Positions 1-16,209 of a stretch of DNA of 16,597 nt are shown piece after piece. The DNA lies in the NCBI GenBank assembly GCA_024643945.1, contig JAHELX010000038.1, forward strand, positions 3,715 through 20,311, written 5' to 3'. How positions within the stretch are numbered: position 1 is the stretch's first letter; the number at the start of each line of letters is the position of its first letter. The DNA is from Anaerolineales bacterium (GTDB taxonomy: Bacteria > Chloroflexota > Anaerolineae > 4572-78 > NAK82). The notes under the pieces are model-generated. The model was not told the origin of the DNA and did not search any database. It saw only the letters and a list, made by a program, of their open reading frames with translations. The translations under genes were made by a program, and so were the position numbers.

Positions 1-785
1 CGCCACTGGGTGATCAACGAGCGCATCTGGCTCAAGGCGCCGCTCGTCAGGTCTTGCAGCCGTTCGAGTTGTTCCGGCACCCGGGTAGGGTCTTTGTCCA
101 ACAAGAGGCGTGCCGCCTGGGCCGTCAGGGTGATGCCGAAGATAGTCTGGCTGACCGAGTCATGGAGGGCGTGCGCCAGGCGATCGCGCTCCTGGGCTGC
201 TGCATGCTCTTCGACCTGAGCGGCATAGGCCTGCAGCCGCTCATGGGCTTGTTGCAGTTCGGCCAAGAGCGCCTGGCTCTCCTGGCGGGCTGTCTCGGCC
301 TGGCTGTAAAGGACCTCATACGAGACCGCCAGGACACTTGCTGCAACGTAGGACAAAGCCAGGCCCAGCCCTTTCGCCCAGCCCATGGTCAACATCAGGG
401 TGAGGATCATGGCAGCGGCGGAAAAGCCGCCCCAGGCCGTTGCCGCCGGCAAGGAGAGATAATAGAAGGCTTGAACGCTGATAAAAATGTAGAGAACTCC
501 CCATATATCCTGATAGGGACGCAACAGAGCCAGGGCCTGGATCAGACCAGTCTGCAAAGGGAAATAGATGTAAGGGTACCAGGGAAAGCGGCGGAACAAA
601 AAGGGATCGGTCGTCATCAGGAGCAACATGACACCCAACAATGCCGCGGCCAGGAGAGGGTTCCACTCACCAGGGAGAAATGTGAGCTCCCGAACGGCTA
701 CCACGCAAAAAATGAGGTAGCCGAGCAGGTAGATAGCCCGGTGTCGGCGGGGTGTGGCGCGAACAGCCGTAGAGCGTTGGGCCAT
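1..785 (-). CDS. NarL-type membrane sensor histidine kinase (C-terminus cut by window edge)
   Basis: This is an open frame with no stop from 785 to the window edge (261 complete codons seen). It is the sensor half of a two-component system. Residues 17-155 hold several hydrophobic membrane segments, followed by a coiled coil (about 158-200) and a HisKA_3 dimerisation/phosphoacceptor domain. The H-box reads ERDRLAHALHDSVSQ, with the likely phosphorylated His at 208. The ATPase domain would lie beyond position 1. The ATG sits 2 bp after the stop of the preceding histidine kinase gene. A GAGGAG ribosome site (794-799) lies inside that gene's last codons, so translation is probably coupled. The coiled coil and H-box closely resemble those of the upstream kinase (AQVEEHAAAQERDRLAHALHDS against AQVEEYAVAQERGRLARELHDS), so the two look like diverged tandem duplicates. 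The signal sensed is unknown; no recognisable periplasmic sensor domain is visible. Confidence 0.88.
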   Translation of the reverse strand, partial: MAQRSTAVRATPRRHRAIYLLGYLIFCVVAVRELTFLPGEWNPLLAAALLGVMLLLMTTDPFLFRRFPWYPYIYFPLQTGLIQALALLRPYQDIWGVLYIFISVQAFYYLSLPAATAWGGFSAAAMILTLMLTMGWAKGLGLALSYVAASVLAVSYEVLYSQAETARQESQALLAELQQAHERLQAYAAQVEEHAAAQERDRLAHALHDSVSQTIFGITLTAQAARLLLDKDPTRVPEQLERLQDLTSGALSQMRSLITQW

Positions 786-787
786 CC

Positions 788-1978
788 CTACATCTCCTCG
801 ACGCAAATGCGCGTGCCATGGCCGGGCTGTGAGTCGCAGCTCAGCTTCCAACCCAGCTCGCGCGCCCGCTCCGCCATTCCCGAAAGCCCCACGTGTCCAC
901 TCTCGAGGGAGACTGCGCCCGGATCAAACCCAACTCCGTGATCCTCTACCTCCAGCGACAGCCGTTCCTCGACCAGCTTCAGCCGCACGACCGCTTCACG
1001 CGTTCCAGCGTGCCTGGTCACGTTGTTGAGCGCCTCCTGCACGATGCGGTATAAGCCGACCGCGACCGGTTCGGGCAGGGCCTTCTCCCCGCTCACCTCC
1101 AGGCAGATGTGTAAGCCATCCCGCGTCTCTCGTTCGGCGATCAGCCGGCGCAGCGCCGCAGGTAGCCCTTCTTCAGCCAGCGAGCGAGGCCGCAGTTGGT
1201 TGACCAGCACCTGGATCTCACCTACAGCGCTGTGAGCCAGTTCCTGCAGCCGGTCGAGCTGTTCAGCCGCGCGGCCTGGCTCCCTCTCGAGCAGCATGCG
1301 CGCCGCCTGTACGGTCAGGTTCATACTAAAGATCGTCTGCGTGGCCGAATCGTGCAGCTCGCGTGCCAAACGGCCGCGCTCCTGCGCCACAGCGTACTCT
1401 TCCACCTGTGCCGCATAGTCCTGAAGCTGGTGGTGGGTCACCTGCAACTCTTCAAGCAAGCGCTGGTTCTCCTGGCGAGCCGCTTCAGCCCTGTGGATGA
1501 GGTGGGTATAATTTCCTGTTATGAAAAAAAGTCCGCCAAACAAAAGGACCATCACCAGGCCAGACAGCGCCCACTGCCAACCGGCCATCACTGGGCCGGC
1601 TATCGCCAGAGTGAAAGCTCCTATCCATACAAAACCCGTCCGCCGCTTGAAAAATAGGACGGCCTGCAGGCTAAGGGGGATGAACAGCATAGGGAGAAAA
1701 TCCTCGTGGGGCGGGATGAGCAGCAGGCGCATCGCCAGCCCGGATTGAAGCAAGAGATAAAGCCAGGGGTACCAGCCCCGCCAGCGGGATAGCCAGGGCT
1801 CCAGGGTCAAGAGCAGCCCGTACATCACCAGCAGAACCATCACCAGGCCCGCTTCTGGCCGGCCAGAGTAGCTGTTCACTGCCCGGACCAGCACCGCAAG
1901 GTAGATCAAATAGACGCCGAGATAGCGGACGAGAATCCTGGACAACCAGTGGTCAGATGCCGAGGAAGGGATAGCCAT
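788..1978 (-). CDS. NarL-type membrane sensor histidine kinase
   Basis: A 396-residue two-component sensor of the NarX/DesK-like class. About five hydrophobic segments (roughly residues 14-34, 43-60, 68-90, 95-110 and 116-155) form a membrane sensor region without a large extracytoplasmic loop. A coiled coil (160-200) leads to HisKA_3 with RLARELHDSATQ, likely phospho-His 209. The HATPase domain shows YRIVQEALNNVTRHAG (N-box, Asn319), EDHGVGFD (G1, 345-352) and GHVGLSGM (G2). It lies 16 bp downstream of the kinase-regulator fusion and 2 bp upstream of a second, similar kinase on the same strand, so its natural partner is probably the NarL receiver of that fusion. I see no good Shine-Dalgarno before its ATG, so it may rely on translational coupling. 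The arrangement with few loops suggests sensing of membrane or intramembrane state, as in DesK/LiaS types, but that is inference. Confidence 0.93.
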   Translation of the reverse strand: MAIPSSASDHWLSRILVRYLGVYLIYLAVLVRAVNSYSGRPEAGLVMVLLVMYGLLLTLEPWLSRWRGWYPWLYLLLQSGLAMRLLLIPPHEDFLPMLFIPLSLQAVLFFKRRTGFVWIGAFTLAIAGPVMAGWQWALSGLVMVLLFGGLFFITGNYTHLIHRAEAARQENQRLLEELQVTHHQLQDYAAQVEEYAVAQERGRLARELHDSATQTIFSMNLTVQAARMLLEREPGRAAEQLDRLQELAHSAVGEIQVLVNQLRPRSLAEEGLPAALRRLIAERETRDGLHICLEVSGEKALPEPVAVGLYRIVQEALNNVTRHAGTREAVVRLKLVEERLSLEVEDHGVGFDPGAVSLESGHVGLSGMAERARELGWKLSCDSQPGHGTRICVEEM

Positions 1979-1994: not shown

Positions 1995-3572
1995 CTACTC
2001 GTTGCCCAGGCCGTGCTTGAGCGCCCAGATGGCGGCCTGGGTCCGGTCTGCCAGGCCCAATTTGCTGAGGATGCTGCTGACGTGGGTCTTGACCGTTTTC
2101 TCGCTGATGATCATTTGCTGTGCGATCTCGCGATTGTTCCGTCCTTGGGCGATCCAGTGAAGTACCTCCCGCTCTCGTTCGGTCAGTTGATCGAGGCCAG
2201 GGCTGGTCGCCTGGTCGCCAATCGGCCTGGTTTCTTGCGGGCTGGTCCCGGCCACGGCCGACATCAACTTCTTAGCGACATCGGGGTGCAGTTGGACTTT
2301 ACCCTGATATGCCTCACGCACCGCCTGCACCAGGTCATCGGGATGGATATCTTTAAGCAGATAGCCCTGAGCGCCAGCGCGAATAGCCGGGAAGACTTTG
2401 TCATCTTCGCCAAAGCTGGTTAAGATCAGCACGCGCGAGTTGGGACTGTCCTCGATGATCCTGGAGGTCGCCTCGACGCCGCTCATCTGCGGCATCACCA
2501 GGTCCAGCAGCACGATATCGGGCTGCAGTTGGCGTGCCAGTTCTATCGCCTCTGCTCCGTTTATGCCTTCGCCGACGACCTGCATATCGTCCTGAAGGTC
2601 GATGAAGGTGCGCAGGCCCTGGCGCACGACGGCGTGATCATCCACAATCAGAACCTTGATCTTTTTCATTTCCTCTCCCTGTCCTTTACTGGCCGATGCT
2701 GCCGACCGGTCAGGCAAGGCTGGGCGCGGCGTGGGGTGACGCGCCACCCCACGTTTAATTGCCTCCAGTTCCGCCGCTACCTGCCGCATGCTGGCCAAAC
2801 GCGCCCCGCGGTTCTTGGCCAGCATGCGGCGCATCAAATCGTCCAACGCCAGCGGCACATCATCCCGATACGCGGCCAGGTTGGGCAGCGGCTGGTTCAA
2901 GATGGCGTTCACGATCGCCCCTGGATAGCCCTCTCCCTCAAATGGGCGTTCCCCGGCCAGCATCTCGAAGAACACCACCCCCAGCGACCAGATATCTGTG
3001 CGCTCGTCCAGAGCCTGGCGGTTGCAGCCTTCGGGGCTGAGATATTGAAAGGTACCAATCACTTCTCCGCGTCTGGTAATCGGCGGGTGACCTGCGATGT
3101 GCGCCAGCCCGAAATCGGTCAGGCGGGGCGTGCCGTCTGCGGCCAAGAGGATGTTGCCCGGCTTGATGTCGCGATGAATGATGTTCAGGTGATGCGCCCG
3201 CGCCAGCGCGTCGGCTATCTCCAGCGCGATGCCCACCGTGCGCTCCAGGGGCAACTGGGGCTGCTCTCTGAGCAAATCGGCCAACGAGCCGCCTGCCGCG
3301 TACTCCATGACGATGTAATGCTGGCCGGCTTCCTCGAAGGTGGCCAGCACCTGGATGATATTGGGGTGATTGAGCTCGCGTAGCAGTTGGCCCTCGCGCC
3401 GAAAGCGTTCGACCAGGTGGGGTGCGTCGAGGATGATTTCCGGCCTGAGGACCTTGATGGCAACCGGCTGGCCGGTCTGAGTATCCAAGCCCTTATGGAC
3501 TTTGCCGACGCCGCCTTCGCCAATCAAGTAGCCAAGCTGATAACGGTTGGCGATGAGTTGCGGATCATCCAT
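1995..3572 (-). CDS. Ser/Thr protein kinase fused to a NarL/LuxR-family response regulator
   Basis: A 525-residue two-part protein. Residues 10-265 are a Hanks-type Ser/Thr kinase with all key parts: GEGGVG loop (18-23), AIK Lys40, alpha-C Glu60, HRDIKPGN (133-140), DFG (153-155) and YLSPE (177-181), so it should be active. There is no transmembrane segment and no PASTA or other sensor domain. A Pro/Ala/Arg-rich linker (about 268-301) joins it to a complete response regulator starting at Met302. The regulator has acidic pair Asp311-Asp312, phospho-Asp357 (VLLDLVMP), the LLKD lysine near 407, and a C-terminal LuxR helix-turn-helix (LTEREREVLHWIAQGRN onward). A perfect AAGGAGGTGG ribosome site precedes the ATG. 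It is the first gene of an operon with two histidine kinases. The regulator could therefore receive phosphate from a His kinase on Asp357 and from its own kinase on Ser/Thr. A second start inside the gene may give the regulator alone. Confidence 0.95.
   Translation of the reverse strand: MDDPQLIANRYQLGYLIGEGGVGKVHKGLDTQTGQPVAIKVLRPEIILDAPHLVERFRREGQLLRELNHPNIIQVLATFEEAGQHYIVMEYAAGGSLADLLREQPQLPLERTVGIALEIADALARAHHLNIIHRDIKPGNILLAADGTPRLTDFGLAHIAGHPPITRRGEVIGTFQYLSPEGCNRQALDERTDIWSLGVVFFEMLAGERPFEGEGYPGAIVNAILNQPLPNLAAYRDDVPLALDDLMRRMLAKNRGARLASMRQVAAELEAIKRGVARHPTPRPALPDRSAASASKGQGEEMKKIKVLIVDDHAVVRQGLRTFIDLQDDMQVVGEGINGAEAIELARQLQPDIVLLDLVMPQMSGVEATSRIIEDSPNSRVLILTSFGEDDKVFPAIRAGAQGYLLKDIHPDDLVQAVREAYQGKVQLHPDVAKKLMSAVAGTSPQETRPIGDQATSPGLDQLTEREREVLHWIAQGRNNREIAQQMIISEKTVKTHVSSILSKLGLADRTQAAIWALKHGLGNE
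2667..2680 (-). promoter_or_regulatory. Internal ribosome binding site and start for a stand-alone response regulator
   Basis: Read on the minus strand, AGGGAGAGGAA immediately precedes the in-frame ATG of Met302. That codon begins MKKIKVLIVDDHAVVRQ, the usual N-terminus of a NarL-family regulator. Either initiation also occurs here, giving a 224-residue free regulator, or this is the relic of a separate regulator gene whose upstream kinase lost its stop codon. The spacing to the ATG is short (about 2-5 nt), so strength is uncertain. Confidence 0.55.
2730..2753. repeat. Perfect inverted repeat inside the kinase-regulator linker
   Basis: CGTGGGGTG and CACCCCACG, 9-bp arms around a 6-nt loop, fill exactly eight codons (Arg274-Thr281) of the linker. 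The minus-strand left arm plus its next base, CGTGGGGTGG, also opens the hairpin at 8106-8145. This may be a member of a small palindromic repeat family or simply an RNA structure just ahead of the internal start. Confidence 0.6.
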
Positions 3573-3645: not shown

Positions 3646-3674
3646 AATATACGGTAGATTGTTTCCGAAGTCAA
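3646..3674 (-). promoter_or_regulatory. Sigma-70-type promoter of the kinase-regulator operon
   Basis: On the minus strand, TTGACT (3674-3669) is followed by a 17-bp spacer and TATATT (3651-3646), about 75 bp upstream of the fusion gene's ATG. This is close to the housekeeping consensus and correctly oriented for the three-gene signalling operon. The rest of the 3573-3883 intergenic stretch holds no gene I can support. Confidence 0.65.
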
Positions 3675-5461: not shown

Positions 5462-6640
5462 TCATTTGTCCCGGTCCTTTGGCTTGCGCAGTCCGGCGAA
5501 GGTGTACAGGGGGAGCAGCAATGAGCTGGCATGATAGCTAGCGACATCAGCCAATTGGCGAGCGCGCAGGCGCATCCTGGCTGCTGTCATCGAGACTCTG
5601 TGCCCGGCCGGGGCAAAGCGCCATACCAGAGGCCACTCCACTGGCTCGGCTGGCTGGCCCCAGCGCACCACTGCCGCTGCCCAGGTGAGGCCCCCGCCAA
5701 ACCCCACCATACAGATATTCATCCCATCGCGGATGCGGCCCTCTTCCAGCGCCTCTACCAATGCGATCGGGATGGACGCCGCCGACGTATTGCCGTAGCG
5801 ATCAATGTTAACGAAAAACTTGTCCATCGGCAGGCCGAGGTGGCGCGCGGCCAACTGAATGATACGCAGGTTGGCCTGGTGGGGGATGAATAAATCGATG
5901 TCGTCCAGGCTAAGCCCGGCTTTATCGACCGCTTGCAGCGTAGCCTCTCCCATCACCCGGGTGGCGAATTTGAAGACTTCACGCCCGTTCATCTCAATGT
6001 ACATGGCCTTGTCTGCGACCATCTCGTGAGTGATGGGGTAAGCGCAGCCGCCCCCGCGCACCATGAGATGCTCACCGCCGCTGCCATCGGAGCCCAACAC
6101 AAAGGATTGAACTCCGCTGGGTTGACTGCTCGCCTCCAGCACGACCGCGCCGGCCCCATCTCCGAAGAGAACGCAGGTGTTCCGGTCCTCCCAGTTCACG
6201 AACATGCTGATGACTTCGCTACCGATAACCAGGACCCGGTCATAGGCACCAGTGGCGATGAATTGGTGCGCCGTCGCCAACCCATAAACGAAGCCGGTGC
6301 AGCCAGCTACAAGACTAAAGGCCGGGCATTCCGCCCCCAACTGATATTGCGCTTCACTCGCCACGGAGGGCAGGAAATGATCAGGCGACGAAGTGGCGAC
6401 GATGATGAGATCCACGTCTTGAGGCATCAGCCCGGCCACGTCGAGGGCCTGGCGCGAGGCCGCGACCGACATCGAGGTGTTCGTTTCCCCTGGGCTGATG
6501 ATGTGCCGCTCACGGATGCCCGTTCGCGCCAGGATCCATTCATCGCTGGTATCCACCATCTTTTCCAGATCGGCGTTGGTGAGAACCCTGGATGGAGCAT
6601 ACTTGCCCCAACCCGTGATCTTACTGTAACGTTCGGACAT
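5462..6640 (-). CDS. fabH: 3-oxoacyl-ACP synthase III (KAS III, FabH-like) with C-terminal extension
   Basis: A 392-residue thiolase-fold condensing enzyme of the type that starts fatty acid synthesis from acyl-CoA and malonyl-ACP. The Cys-His-Asn triad is complete: Cys114 (SLVAGCTGF), His254 (FIPHQAN) and Asn284 (YGNTS). The glycine-rich MVGFGGGLTWAAA near 311-323 closes the usual fold. Standard FabH ends near residue 326 (VVRW). This protein continues for 66 residues (327-392), Arg-rich with a hydrophobic patch SLLLPLYTFAGL near 372-383, which is not typical. The start is set by GGAAGGGGGGAG just before MSERYSKITG rather than the ATG 9 codons earlier. A hairpin terminator lies upstream, so it is probably transcribed apart from the membrane-protein gene. 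Substrate class (straight, branched or a secondary-metabolite starter) cannot be read from the sequence. Confidence 0.92.
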   Translation of the reverse strand: MSERYSKITGWGKYAPSRVLTNADLEKMVDTSDEWILARTGIRERHIISPGETNTSMSVAASRQALDVAGLMPQDVDLIIVATSSPDHFLPSVASEAQYQLGAECPAFSLVAGCTGFVYGLATAHQFIATGAYDRVLVIGSEVISMFVNWEDRNTCVLFGDGAGAVVLEASSQPSGVQSFVLGSDGSGGEHLMVRGGGCAYPITHEMVADKAMYIEMNGREVFKFATRVMGEATLQAVDKAGLSLDDIDLFIPHQANLRIIQLAARHLGLPMDKFFVNIDRYGNTSAASIPIALVEALEEGRIRDGMNICMVGFGGGLTWAAAVVRWGQPAEPVEWPLVWRFAPAGHRVSMTAARMRLRARQLADVASYHASSLLLPLYTFAGLRKPKDRDK

Positions 6641-6710
6641 GGTACTCCCCCCTTCCATAGTCTTCATTCTTGTCGTTCCCAGGCACGGCGCCGGCGTTCA
6701 CAAAATAACC

Positions 6711-6774: not shown

Positions 6775-7149
6775 TTACGCACGAGCGACAGAGCGCTGTC
6801 GCCACAAGAGAGCGGCAATGATGCCAGCCACCGAAAGTGCAGAGCCTACTGCTGCCGCTCCGATGAGGACTCCGCGACGGCGGAGGAAAGAAGCTTTCGG
6901 CTCTGCATCCCGTCTTTCTGCTCGTTGTATGGCGGCTGCCAACAGGTCTTGTTTGAGACCTGCCTCAAATGCAGGCGAGGGCGCCACCGGCACCAACGCT
7001 GCTCTTACCCGTTCGGCAATGCGCAACAACGGCGACAGTTCATCCCGATAGGCCGGGAAGAGGTTCAGATAATCCTCGCTATTGGACTCTTTGTGAGCTA
7101 AGTGATCGGCGTGAGCCGCTAACACTTCAACGATTACATCTTCTGGCAT
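6775..7149 (-). CDS. Small single-pass membrane protein, candidate anti-sigma-like partner of the nearby ECF sigma factor
   Basis: A 124-residue protein I cannot place in a named family. Residues 1-90 are predicted soluble and helical (YLNLFPAYRDELSPLLRIAE near 27-46). A basic RRR (90-92) is followed by a single membrane helix (93-116) and a short basic tail. The positive-inside rule puts the N-terminal part in the cytoplasm, the layout of a membrane anti-sigma factor. The usual zinc motif (HxxxCxxC) is absent; the protein contains no cysteine at all. It lies 47 bp after DegV and two genes after an ECF sigma factor on the same strand. The start at ATG 7149 is preferred because GGAAAGG lies about 9 nt upstream; an in-frame GTG at 7167 and an ATG at 7158 are alternatives. 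The gene ends before a clear terminator. Confidence 0.72.
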   Translation of the reverse strand: MPEDVIVEVLAAHADHLAHKESNSEDYLNLFPAYRDELSPLLRIAERVRAALVPVAPSPAFEAGLKQDLLAAAIQRAERRDAEPKASFLRRRGVLIGAAAVGSALSVAGIIAALLWRQRSVARA

Positions 7150-7196
7150 AGGATCCATCCTTTCCACGCCTGTGCCACTGCATCCCTCTACGACCT

Positions 7197-8152: not shown

Positions 8153-8701
8153 CTAAGGCTGCCCCTCGGCGTCAAGCATCTCGCGCAGTGACAGCAGTGT
8201 TCGATGATAAAGGGACTTGATCGCTCCCTCACTGCGGTCCATCACCTTCCCAATCTCGGCGTTCGACATGCCTTCGACAAATTTGAGGATGAGGAGCTGC
8301 TGGCGATCGGGAGGCAGGCGTCGGATGGCAGCCAGCAGTTCGTCTTTTTCCTCATTTTGCTCGGCCATTTGATCCGGCCCCTGGCGGCGTTGAACACTAA
8401 GCTTTATGTCCTCTAATGAGATGATTTTGCGCCGGCTTTGGTCCCGGTGCCAATTAGCCACCAAATTGTGGGCGATGCGATACAGCCATGCCGAGAAGGG
8501 AGCTCCTTGATCTACGTAACGCTCTACGTGATCGAGCGCCCGGTAGAAGGTACGCGCCGTCAGGTCTTCGGCATCGTGCTGATTGCCGATTCGATAATAA
8601 ACGTAATTATAGATTTTATTCACATAACGTTCATATAGGATACCGAAGGCCGCTGGATCGGTTTTGGCTCGTTCGACCAGGGCATTTTCGTCAGATGACA
8701 T
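8153..8701 (-). CDS. ECF-type RNA polymerase sigma factor
   Basis: A 182-residue sigma-70 family factor with only regions 2 and 4, the ECF layout. Region 2 (about 15-88) includes DAEDLTARTFYRAL, the core-binding and -10 recognition area, and AWLYRIAHNLVANWHRD. Region 4 (about 122-176) has LPPDRQQLLILKFVEGMSN followed by the helix-turn-helix EIGKVMDRSEGAIKSLYHR, which reads the -35. It should direct polymerase to a small regulon, normally held in check by an anti-sigma factor. The best local candidate is the membrane protein at 6775-7149, separated from it by DegV copy 1. AGGGGAAAGC gives a good ribosome site. A tandem TATAAT region lies about 80 bp upstream, so housekeeping sigma may transcribe it. 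The ECF subgroup cannot be set by eye. Confidence 0.95.
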   Translation of the reverse strand: MSSDENALVERAKTDPAAFGILYERYVNKIYNYVYYRIGNQHDAEDLTARTFYRALDHVERYVDQGAPFSAWLYRIAHNLVANWHRDQSRRKIISLEDIKLSVQRRQGPDQMAEQNEEKDELLAAIRRLPPDRQQLLILKFVEGMSNAEIGKVMDRSEGAIKSLYHRTLLSLREMLDAEGQP

Positions 8702-14894: not shown

Positions 14895-14923
14895 GATTTT
14901 GGGTAAGCAGCACCGATTTTGGG
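14895..14923. repeat. Direct repeat pair upstream of the hybrid kinase promoter
   Basis: GATTTTGGG occurs at 14895-14903 and again at 14915-14923, 20 bp apart (two helical turns). The pair lies 21 and 41 bp upstream of the -35 at 14944 and behind the purB start. The spacing suits a dimeric activator, but no such regulator is identified. Confidence 0.35.
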
Positions 14924-14943
14924 AATCTGGGACTAGAGTCAGC

Positions 14944-14972
14944 TTGTCTAGTTCTGCACTTACTGATAGAAT
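14944..14972 (+). promoter_or_regulatory. Promoter of the receiver-histidine kinase gene
   Basis: TTGTCT (14944-14949), a 17-bp spacer ending in TGA, then TAGAAT (14967-14972), forming an extended -10. It predicts a leader of about 95 nt before the ATG at 15073. Confidence 0.6.
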
Positions 14973-15072
14973 AGTCTCAAGCATCAGAATACTACAGGCC
15001 ATCCGCCTGGTCAATACCCAGAGAAACATATACAGGGGGGAACTGGAGCGTGACCGAGAAGGTGGAAGCATA

Positions 15073-16209
15073 ATGAGGGCGAAAACTCCCGAGAATAATG
15101 CGATCTTGATTGTGGGTGACATTGCCAATATTGGGGTATTATTCGATTATTTGAGAGGATTTGGATTCAGAGTATTGGCAGTCGATGACGGAGAAAGTGC
15201 GCTCCAGATAACTGAGCACGCCAGGCCGGACATCATCCTGTTGGATGTGATGCTGCCCGGCATCGACGGGTTCGAGACGTGTCGCCGGCTGAAAGAGCGT
15301 GAAACCACCCAGAACATTCCGGTGATTTTCATCACGGCTCTGGCCAATACAATAGATAAGGTCAGAGCCTTTGCGCTTGGGGCCGTGGATTACGTCACCA
15401 AGCCCATTCAGTCTGAAGAAGTCCTGGCCCGCGTCAGGACTCACCTGACCATTCAAAACCTGCAAAGGCGGCTGGAGGAGAAAAACGCCCGGCTGCAAGA
15501 GGAGATTGACGAGCGTGAGAAGCTCATCGAGGAGCTGGACGCCTTTGCCCACACGGTGGCCCACGACCTGAAAAACCCGCTGGGGGTTAGCATCAATTAT
15601 GCCAGATTCCTGAACAAGTACTGCACAGAAATGGGGATGGAAGAGTTGCAAAAGTATTCACAGCGCATCGTGCGCTCTGGGCAGAAGATGAACGATATTA
15701 TCGAGGCGTTGTTGTTGCTGGCCAGCGTGCGCAAAGAAGAAGTGGACTTGAAGCCCTTGAACATGGCCCATATCGTAACCGAAGCCCAGAGTCGCCTGGC
15801 GTATATGATTGGGCAATACCAGGCCGAGATCATCCTTCCCGCCGGCTGGCCCACAGCCCTGGGCTATGGCCCGTGGGTTGAGGAAGTATGGGTCAACTAT
15901 CTCAGCAACGGCATCAAGTATGGGGGACAACCCCCCCGCCTGGAGCTGGGCACGACCTCTCAGGCGGACGGCATGCTGCAATTCTGGGTCCGAGACAATG
16001 GTGATGGCCTGATGCCGGAGGATCAGGCCCGGGTGTTTGTCCCATTCACGCGACTCGACCAGGATCGCGCCGATGGGCACGGCCTGGGACTTTCAATTGT
16101 GCAACGTATTGTGGAAAAGTTAGGGGGGGAGGTCGGCGTAAAGAGTGACGGTGTGCCAGGACAGGGCAGTGTTTTCAGATTCACCCTACCCCGCTCAACA
16201 CAAACATGA
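15073..16209 (+). CDS. Soluble receiver-histidine kinase hybrid protein
   Basis: A 378-residue protein with an N-terminal receiver domain (10-125) followed by a coiled coil (125-156), HisKA and HATPase. The receiver has phospho-Asp58 (IILLDVMLPG), Thr88 and Lys110 (TKP). The usual acidic pair reads Gly15-Asp16 (ILIVGDIANIG), so one metal-site acid is missing. The kinase has AHDLKNP with phospho-His164, NYLSNGIKYG, DNGDG and ADGHGLGLSIV. There are no membrane segments, so the input is probably phosphate or protein contact through the receiver, as in cyanobacterial and Chloroflexi hybrids. The start at 15073 is chosen for GAAGGTGGAA upstream and because MRAKTPENNAILIV leads straight into the fold; an ORF start at 14899 would cover the promoter. 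The downstream B12 radical SAM gene begins 56 bp later with its own ribosome site. Confidence 0.92.
   Translation: MRAKTPENNAILIVGDIANIGVLFDYLRGFGFRVLAVDDGESALQITEHARPDIILLDVMLPGIDGFETCRRLKERETTQNIPVIFITALANTIDKVRAFALGAVDYVTKPIQSEEVLARVRTHLTIQNLQRRLEEKNARLQEEIDEREKLIEELDAFAHTVAHDLKNPLGVSINYARFLNKYCTEMGMEELQKYSQRIVRSGQKMNDIIEALLLLASVRKEEVDLKPLNMAHIVTEAQSRLAYMIGQYQAEIILPAGWPTALGYGPWVEEVWVNYLSNGIKYGGQPPRLELGTTSQADGMLQFWVRDNGDGLMPEDQARVFVPFTRLDQDRADGHGLGLSIVQRIVEKLGGEVGVKSDGVPGQGSVFRFTLPRSTQT

Follow-up and report, generated by a model that had tools for sequence, protein, structure and literature searches.

Response regulators of the LiaR/VraR (NarL) type work with HisKA_3 histidine kinases through a set of Asp, Thr and Lys switch residues, and VraR-type regulators dimerise upon Asp phosphorylation. 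Hanks-type Ser/Thr kinases of the PknB/Stk1 type, which share a conserved activation-loop Thr, are described in passages of one published account as forming dimers linked to activation; according to the same passages, the Bacillus subtilis Hanks kinase YabT undergoes DNA-activated trans-autophosphorylation (PMC6333020). YabT has a disordered basic DNA-binding region and a transmembrane helix but no receiver. The two kinds of signalling are known to meet. Passages of a review report that Stk1 phosphorylates VraR, lowering its DNA binding, and the same passages cite a study that failed to see this phosphorylation (PMC4601284); this reported precedent in trans bears out the one invoked in an initial annotation of the locus that we describe here. 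In HstK of Anabaena, to judge from the titles of papers on this protein, a Ser/Thr kinase and a two-component module are joined in one chain, the module being a histidine kinase and not a DNA-binding response regulator.

We analysed a 16,597-nucleotide stretch of DNA (the window) from an Anaerolineales bacterium, in which an open reading frame on the minus strand at 1995..3572 (ATG at 3572, stop codon at 1995-1997) specifies a protein of 525 amino acids. Specifically, Pfam assigns to this protein a Hanks-type Ser/Thr kinase domain with its catalytic residues (residues 11-262, at 2787..3542 on the minus strand; Pkinase, E 8e-55), a receiver with the phospho-acceptor Asp357 (residues 307-419, at 2316..2654 on the minus strand; Response_reg, E 6e-29) and a LuxR/GerE helix-turn-helix (HTH) (residues 461-517, at 2022..2192 on the minus strand; GerE, E 1.5e-22). 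The initial annotation had placed the gene exactly, giving no strand, and had correctly named Lys40, Glu60, an HRD motif at 133-135, a DFG motif at 153-155 and Asp357. These residues, together with Asn140 in the kinase and Thr385 and Lys407 in the receiver, are invariant in 121 of 121 sequences (the query and the best 120 of 5924 database matches), His133-Arg134-Asp135 and Asp153-Phe154-Gly155 included; the activation-loop Thr166 is invariant across 48 aligned rows, and the phosphorylation pocket (D311, D312, D357, T385 and K407) is strictly conserved in the fusions. With a Pkinase domain that has the Lys, Glu, HRD, Asn and DFG elements, the first half is predicted to be a Hanks-type Ser/Thr kinase; the second half, with an Asp-pocket receiver and a LuxR/GerE HTH, classes as a NarL/FixJ response regulator (RR). 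The Shine-Dalgarno (SD) sequence before the ATG is strong (duplex of -13.4 kcal/mol), and a promoter-like site upstream of the gene (3646..3674, minus strand, 10 of 12 positions) is weak, because two such sites were found where 1.2 were expected by chance.

The best solved relatives of the RR half are entries named VraR and those of the kinase half are PknB. The likeness to LiaR/VraR is one of sequence similarity, and many of the matches, like many such fusion proteins in databases, bear automatic names such as 'LiaR'. Whereas LiaR/VraR-type regulators are matched in the RR half, the operon histidine kinases and the switch residues, the fusion adds an N-terminal Hanks kinase in the same chain and has two histidine kinases in its operon. 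Likewise, it resembles PknB/Stk1 in the kinase half and the activation-loop Thr, but its C-terminal partner is an RR and no PASTA part was detected: the profile for PASTA kinases (NCBIfam NF033483, PknB_PASTA) scores 281.9 bits against a cut-off of 450, over the kinase region only.

Elsewhere in the window, Pfam identifies a hybrid response regulator-histidine kinase, with a receiver followed by HisKA and HATPase_c, at 14899-16209 on the plus strand. On the minus strand lie a FabH-like ketoacyl synthase with about 65 extra C-terminal residues past the family profile (5462-6667), a BldN-like ECF sigma factor (8153-8701) and a 130-aa protein with a hydrophobic stretch and no Pfam match (6775-7167), which is separated from the sigma factor gene by one DegV-like open reading frame and, judged by eye, is possibly an anti-sigma-like partner of that factor.

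Two circumstances that the initial annotation had named as fatal to its reading, a frameshift or assembly error and absence of the fusion from related genomes, do not apply. A protein database search scored 7995 sequences, 5924 of them at E<=1e-30, and in 120 of the best 120 of these both halves lie within one protein, kinase first, as assessed with our own profiles. Pfam finds Pkinase, Response_reg and GerE together in 119 of the same 120, the sole entry without GerE being one of 465 aa (P0030). The domain order proposed earlier (PF00069, PF00072, PF00196) was borne out, as all 141 entries, a number that includes near-duplicate loci, have the kinase N-terminal to the receiver. In addition, a 69%-identical copy of 536 aa is an unbroken reading frame on a contig of 5,353,777 bases (locus L174, genome G252). 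A frameshift or a chimeric assembly is ruled out by the fused state of all listed homologues and the position of the G252 copy inside a 5.35-Mb contig; restriction to a single genome is likewise rejected, though coverage by whole genomes is thin.

Among 396 genomes of the class Anaerolineae, at least 56 have a profile match at E<=1e-95, and in at least 16 of these a match spans both halves (one window-type fusion, in G252; one that we call type III, in G003; and 14 that we call type II); these counts are lower bounds, since the large genome searches scored the three best candidates per genome. Among 400 genomes drawn from the phylum, partly overlapping the Anaerolineae set, there was at least one match at E<=1e-90, to the kinase only. 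Searches at the level of the order covered 25, 5, 5 (the same five) and 56 genomes, and the G252 fusion was the sole window-type one that they yielded. A scan of genome contigs brought up mainly kinases from other phyla, whose similarity is confined to the kinase half. We note that one Anaerolineae genome, G001, contains 52 sequences that match either the kinase half or the RR half (E<=1e-30), mostly kinases.

The 14 type II loci (L176-L189) make up a second kinase-receiver-HTH family, in which the HTH looks degenerate (GerE E 9e-9 in the one scanned, L182). The type III fusion (L175:8169-9656) has its own HisKA_3 kinase gene just upstream, and its Ser/Thr kinase sits on a very long branch of the kinase tree. 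All 15 type II and III rows retain the catalytic and Asp-pocket residues, save that F154 is Leu in some.

The nearest kinase domains outside the fusions belong to unfused Anaerolineae kinase-AAA/TPR proteins, 47-61% identical to that of the window and presumably PknK-like. Eleven of 15 unfused related kinases carry, by Pfam, C-terminal AAA and/or TPR regions (MalT-like TPR in two cases), counting L201 and L202, in which these regions fall below the Pfam cut-off and are cut by a contig end. Three have nothing C-terminal, one of which (L190) is cut by a contig end and two of which (L203 and L204, about 300 aa) are a kinase domain alone, indicating that kinases of this type can sometimes do without a partner domain. 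The remaining one is a TIR protein (L200:3-1655, minus strand, in G336), a relative of the fusion kinase joined to an EAD7-like effector-associated domain and looking like a conflict or defence protein. In contrast to the kinase-AAA/TPR proteins, the fusion has no C-terminal AAA or TPR match in Pfam, bears a receiver-HTH, and has a kinase half that falls in a clade apart. The receiver-HTH occupies the place that AAA/TPR regions take in the unfused kinases, which suggests a role for the receiver as input to the kinase.

Directly downstream on the same strand lie two genes for NarL-class histidine kinases. HK1 (788..1978, minus strand, 396 aa) matches HisKA_3 and HATPase_c, and its N-terminal part appears hydrophobic by eye; HK2 (3..851, minus strand), a second HisKA_3 kinase, runs off the window end before any ATPase part appears, and its true start is probably inside the listed reading frame. 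HisKA_3 kinases are thus part of the operon of the fusion, as judged from strand and spacing. The earlier expectation that such genes follow the fusion holds in the window; it fails in the other two fusions linked to histidine kinases, where the histidine kinase precedes (in L174 in the order HK-[kinase-RR], with a 4-base overlap), and at the 14 type II loci, where no related histidine kinase was found near any of them in the stretches examined.

An RR-HK1-HK2 operon without the Ser/Thr kinase occurs in three genomes (L191 in G086, L196 in G022 and L197 in G364). The stand-alone RRs of these operons are 64-70% identical to the RR half of the window and are followed by two histidine kinases, the first of which group with HK1 (98/97) and the second with HK2 (88/86) in a tree of these kinases. 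Kinase remnants sought beside the three RRs were not found, the best chance match having an E value of 5.7. The absence of the kinase from these related operons indicates that the RR can do without it. At four further loci (L192-L195) the order is HK-RR, and in L195 a partial kinase reading frame lies about 7 kb from the stand-alone RR.

Trees of the two halves tell different histories. In a kinase tree of 86 rows (22 window-type, 14 type II, 1 type III and 49 unfused), the window-type kinase halves form one fusion-specific clade (99/99) and the type II kinases another (100/99), with unfused kinases beside each of the two, so that the most economical interpretation is that the two fusions arose separately. 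The window-type RR halves, by comparison, are not one clade in a tree of 69 rows, and keeping them as one group lowers the fit by 111 lnL in a set of 35 rows (p-AU 3e-6). Kinase clade A (100/99), for instance, unites the window, P0001, P0006, P0008, P0010, P0015, P0018, P0020 and L174, but the RRs of its members split between a beta group, to which the kinase-less RR-HK1-HK2 operons also belong (100/99), and, outside this group, an alpha group (L174, P0010 and P0020 at 98/95, with P0018 placed less firmly). The RR data reject holding clade A together (p-AU 0.006), and the kinase data reject both holding 18 beta-RR rows together (p-AU 0.003) and placing nine rows from the other kinase clade together with the window, P0001 and P0006 (p-AU 1e-10); they do not reject holding the four alpha rows together (p 0.36). 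The groups compared in the AU tests were named after the first tree had been seen, which weakens these p values. A common duplication-and-loss history of both halves is disfavoured by the AU tests, with this post hoc choice of groups.

In a FastTree phylogeny of 122 fused and 117 stand-alone RRs (after exclusion of 20 of 120 matches, of which 6 showed traces of a kinase, 6 had long N-terminal extensions and 8 had doubtful starts), 10 changes between the fused and stand-alone states are needed and at least 6 are forced by well-supported branches; across the RR trees, such branches force at least 4 to 6 changes. These counts come from unrooted trees and do not tell gain from loss. Since one kinase clade occurs on RRs of two groups, the kinase is a detachable module whose gain, loss or exchange took place at the linker. 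We conclude from these trees that recombination at the linker has given kinase and RR new partners and that the kinase is readily gained or lost; comparison with relatives shows it to be an addition that Anaerolineae two-component operons, ordinary in other respects, have had at some times and lacked at others.

The linker in question (about residues 273-303, at 2664..2756 on the minus strand) is rich in Pro, Ala and Ser, and across 122 fusions it measures 17-60 aa, with a median of 29. An AlphaFold model has confident domains joined by a disordered linker (mean pLDDT 84.7, pTM 0.55, with pLDDT below 50 at 279-299) and thus predicts no fixed contact between receiver and kinase. The variation in length also argues against rigid coupling, though not against dimerisation driven by proximity. 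Near the end of the linker, at the N-terminus of the RR half, is an in-frame internal ATG (Met302, at 2667..2669 on the minus strand) with GGGAGAGG just before it. Its SD pairing (-8.2 kcal/mol) is the strongest of 40 in-frame ATG, GTG and TTG codons, the next being ATG204 (-7.8), and resembles those of pepA (-8.8) and purB (-7.5) in the window; several other window genes, HK1 among them, pair more weakly. We interpret this ATG as what is left of the RR's original initiation codon, which may still be in use. Four RR-only database proteins (P0185, P0232, P0142 and P0152), 89-96% identical to fused RR halves, begin exactly at the same position.

In the reading that we tentatively favour, and to which we give a little under an even chance of being right, a VraR/LiaR-like RR acquired a PknB-like Ser/Thr kinase as an in-frame N-terminal module, such that Asp357 phosphorylation would produce a dimer in which the kinase is switched on at the promoter. 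We infer the steps of activity from the anatomy of the proteins. The receiver would take the place of the AAA/TPR partner typical of most related kinases; HK1 and HK2, as their gene order suggests, would phosphorylate Asp357; the phosphorylated receivers would dimerise and the HTHs bind DNA. The dimer would bring two kinase domains together for trans-phosphorylation at Thr166, yielding a kinase that is active at the promoter. A His-Asp signal would in this way give rise to Ser/Thr phosphorylation of substrates close by, among which the HTH of the RR itself may be one.

The initial annotation had inferred that Asp and Ser/Thr phosphorylation are integrated on one transcription factor. Spelled out by site, this would mean that the kinase phosphorylates its own RR half in cis, at S490 and T493 of the HTH, and lowers DNA binding. 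The alignment of VraR T175 and T178 with these two residues, both conserved, speaks for this, as do the identity of the closest solved relatives (PknB and VraR) and the action reported for Stk1. At the level of sites, strong support is missing: S490 and T493 are as conserved in stand-alone as in fused RRs (T493 in 107 of 107 stand-alone RRs), the receiver sites of VraR are absent (T106 aligns with the invariant D408 and T119 with A421), and in 9 of 14 type II fusions Asp or Glu stands opposite T493, in a degenerate HTH whose alignment is unsure. A comparison of 122 fused with 107 stand-alone RRs for fusion-specific Ser/Thr acceptor sites found enrichment only in column 488 (Thr in 55/122 against 9/107) and, mildly, in column 369 (Thr in 119/122 against 79/107), with less Ser/Thr in the fused RRs in columns 376, 379 and 447; the window protein itself has Ile at 488. 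We consider this reading rather unlikely. The anatomy agrees better with the other idea in the initial annotation, that of a kinase responsive to phosphorylation of the receiver or to DNA binding. The RR might instead merely deliver the kinase, which, tethered to a promoter without gating by the receiver, would act on RNA polymerase or co-bound regulators. A flexible, variable linker and the DNA-dependent activation of YabT (PMC6333020) are in keeping with such tethering, which alone would not require the strict conservation of the D311/D312/D357/T385/K407 pocket, though the RR's own job would; we regard this explanation as improbable.

Compatible with any of these is that one gene yields two proteins, initiation at codon 302 giving a free RR that would mix with the fused form in dimers. 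Besides the rank of ATG302 among in-frame starts, the residue at position 302 is Met or Val in 9 of 9 members of the closest set (the query and P0001-P0008) and in P0017-P0020, and two database proteins, P0185 and P0232, whose identity with the RR half of either the window or P0001 is 94-96%, have their first residue, a Val probably from a GTG, exactly at this position. Met or Val is found there in only 15 of 122 fusions, however (13 in the window's kinase clade, with membership of rows outside the tree taken from identity, plus P0028 and P0052), and is missing from L174; a decaying relic of the RR's start would fit equally, and P0185 and P0232 may be edge fragments or split genes. A second product thus seems to us possible, if doubtful. 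That the kinase is nearly neutral baggage, easily gained and lost and with no role of its own, would accord with the repeated changes of state on the RR trees but sits badly with the invariance of its catalytic residues (121 of 121 for the query and the best 120 of 5924 matches; 17 of 17 type I-III rows except at F154), and we deem it very improbable. The favoured reading might be extended to a detachable module that converts His-Asp into Ser/Thr signalling, is switched on by Asp357-driven dimerisation, is accompanied by a kinase-free RR from the internal start and has moved between paralogous RR/HK operons, a combination that we think unlikely to hold in all its parts.

A literature search returned no account of a fusion between a Ser/Thr kinase and a DNA-binding RR, an earlier mention being possible; keyword passages of two surveys of bacterial Ser/Thr kinase domains (PMC1262709, PMC2176072) and of two other papers (PMC9239204, PMC12189002) contain no kinase-RR fusion. 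What appears to be newly established here is an evolutionary history in which the kinase was gained, lost or swapped on RR-HK1-HK2 operons. According to passages of a 2018 review, Ser/Thr kinases, like the phosphatases, 'are not DNA-binding proteins', and the systems that they form lack dedicated transcription factors (PMC6213207). At this locus, a Hanks kinase is covalently joined to a dedicated transcription factor, whose own histidine kinases are encoded next to it. Nearly the same operon occurs both with the kinase and without it, so that relatives offer a natural plus/minus comparison of what Ser/Thr phosphorylation contributes to a two-component system and of the way in which signalling proteins exchange domains.
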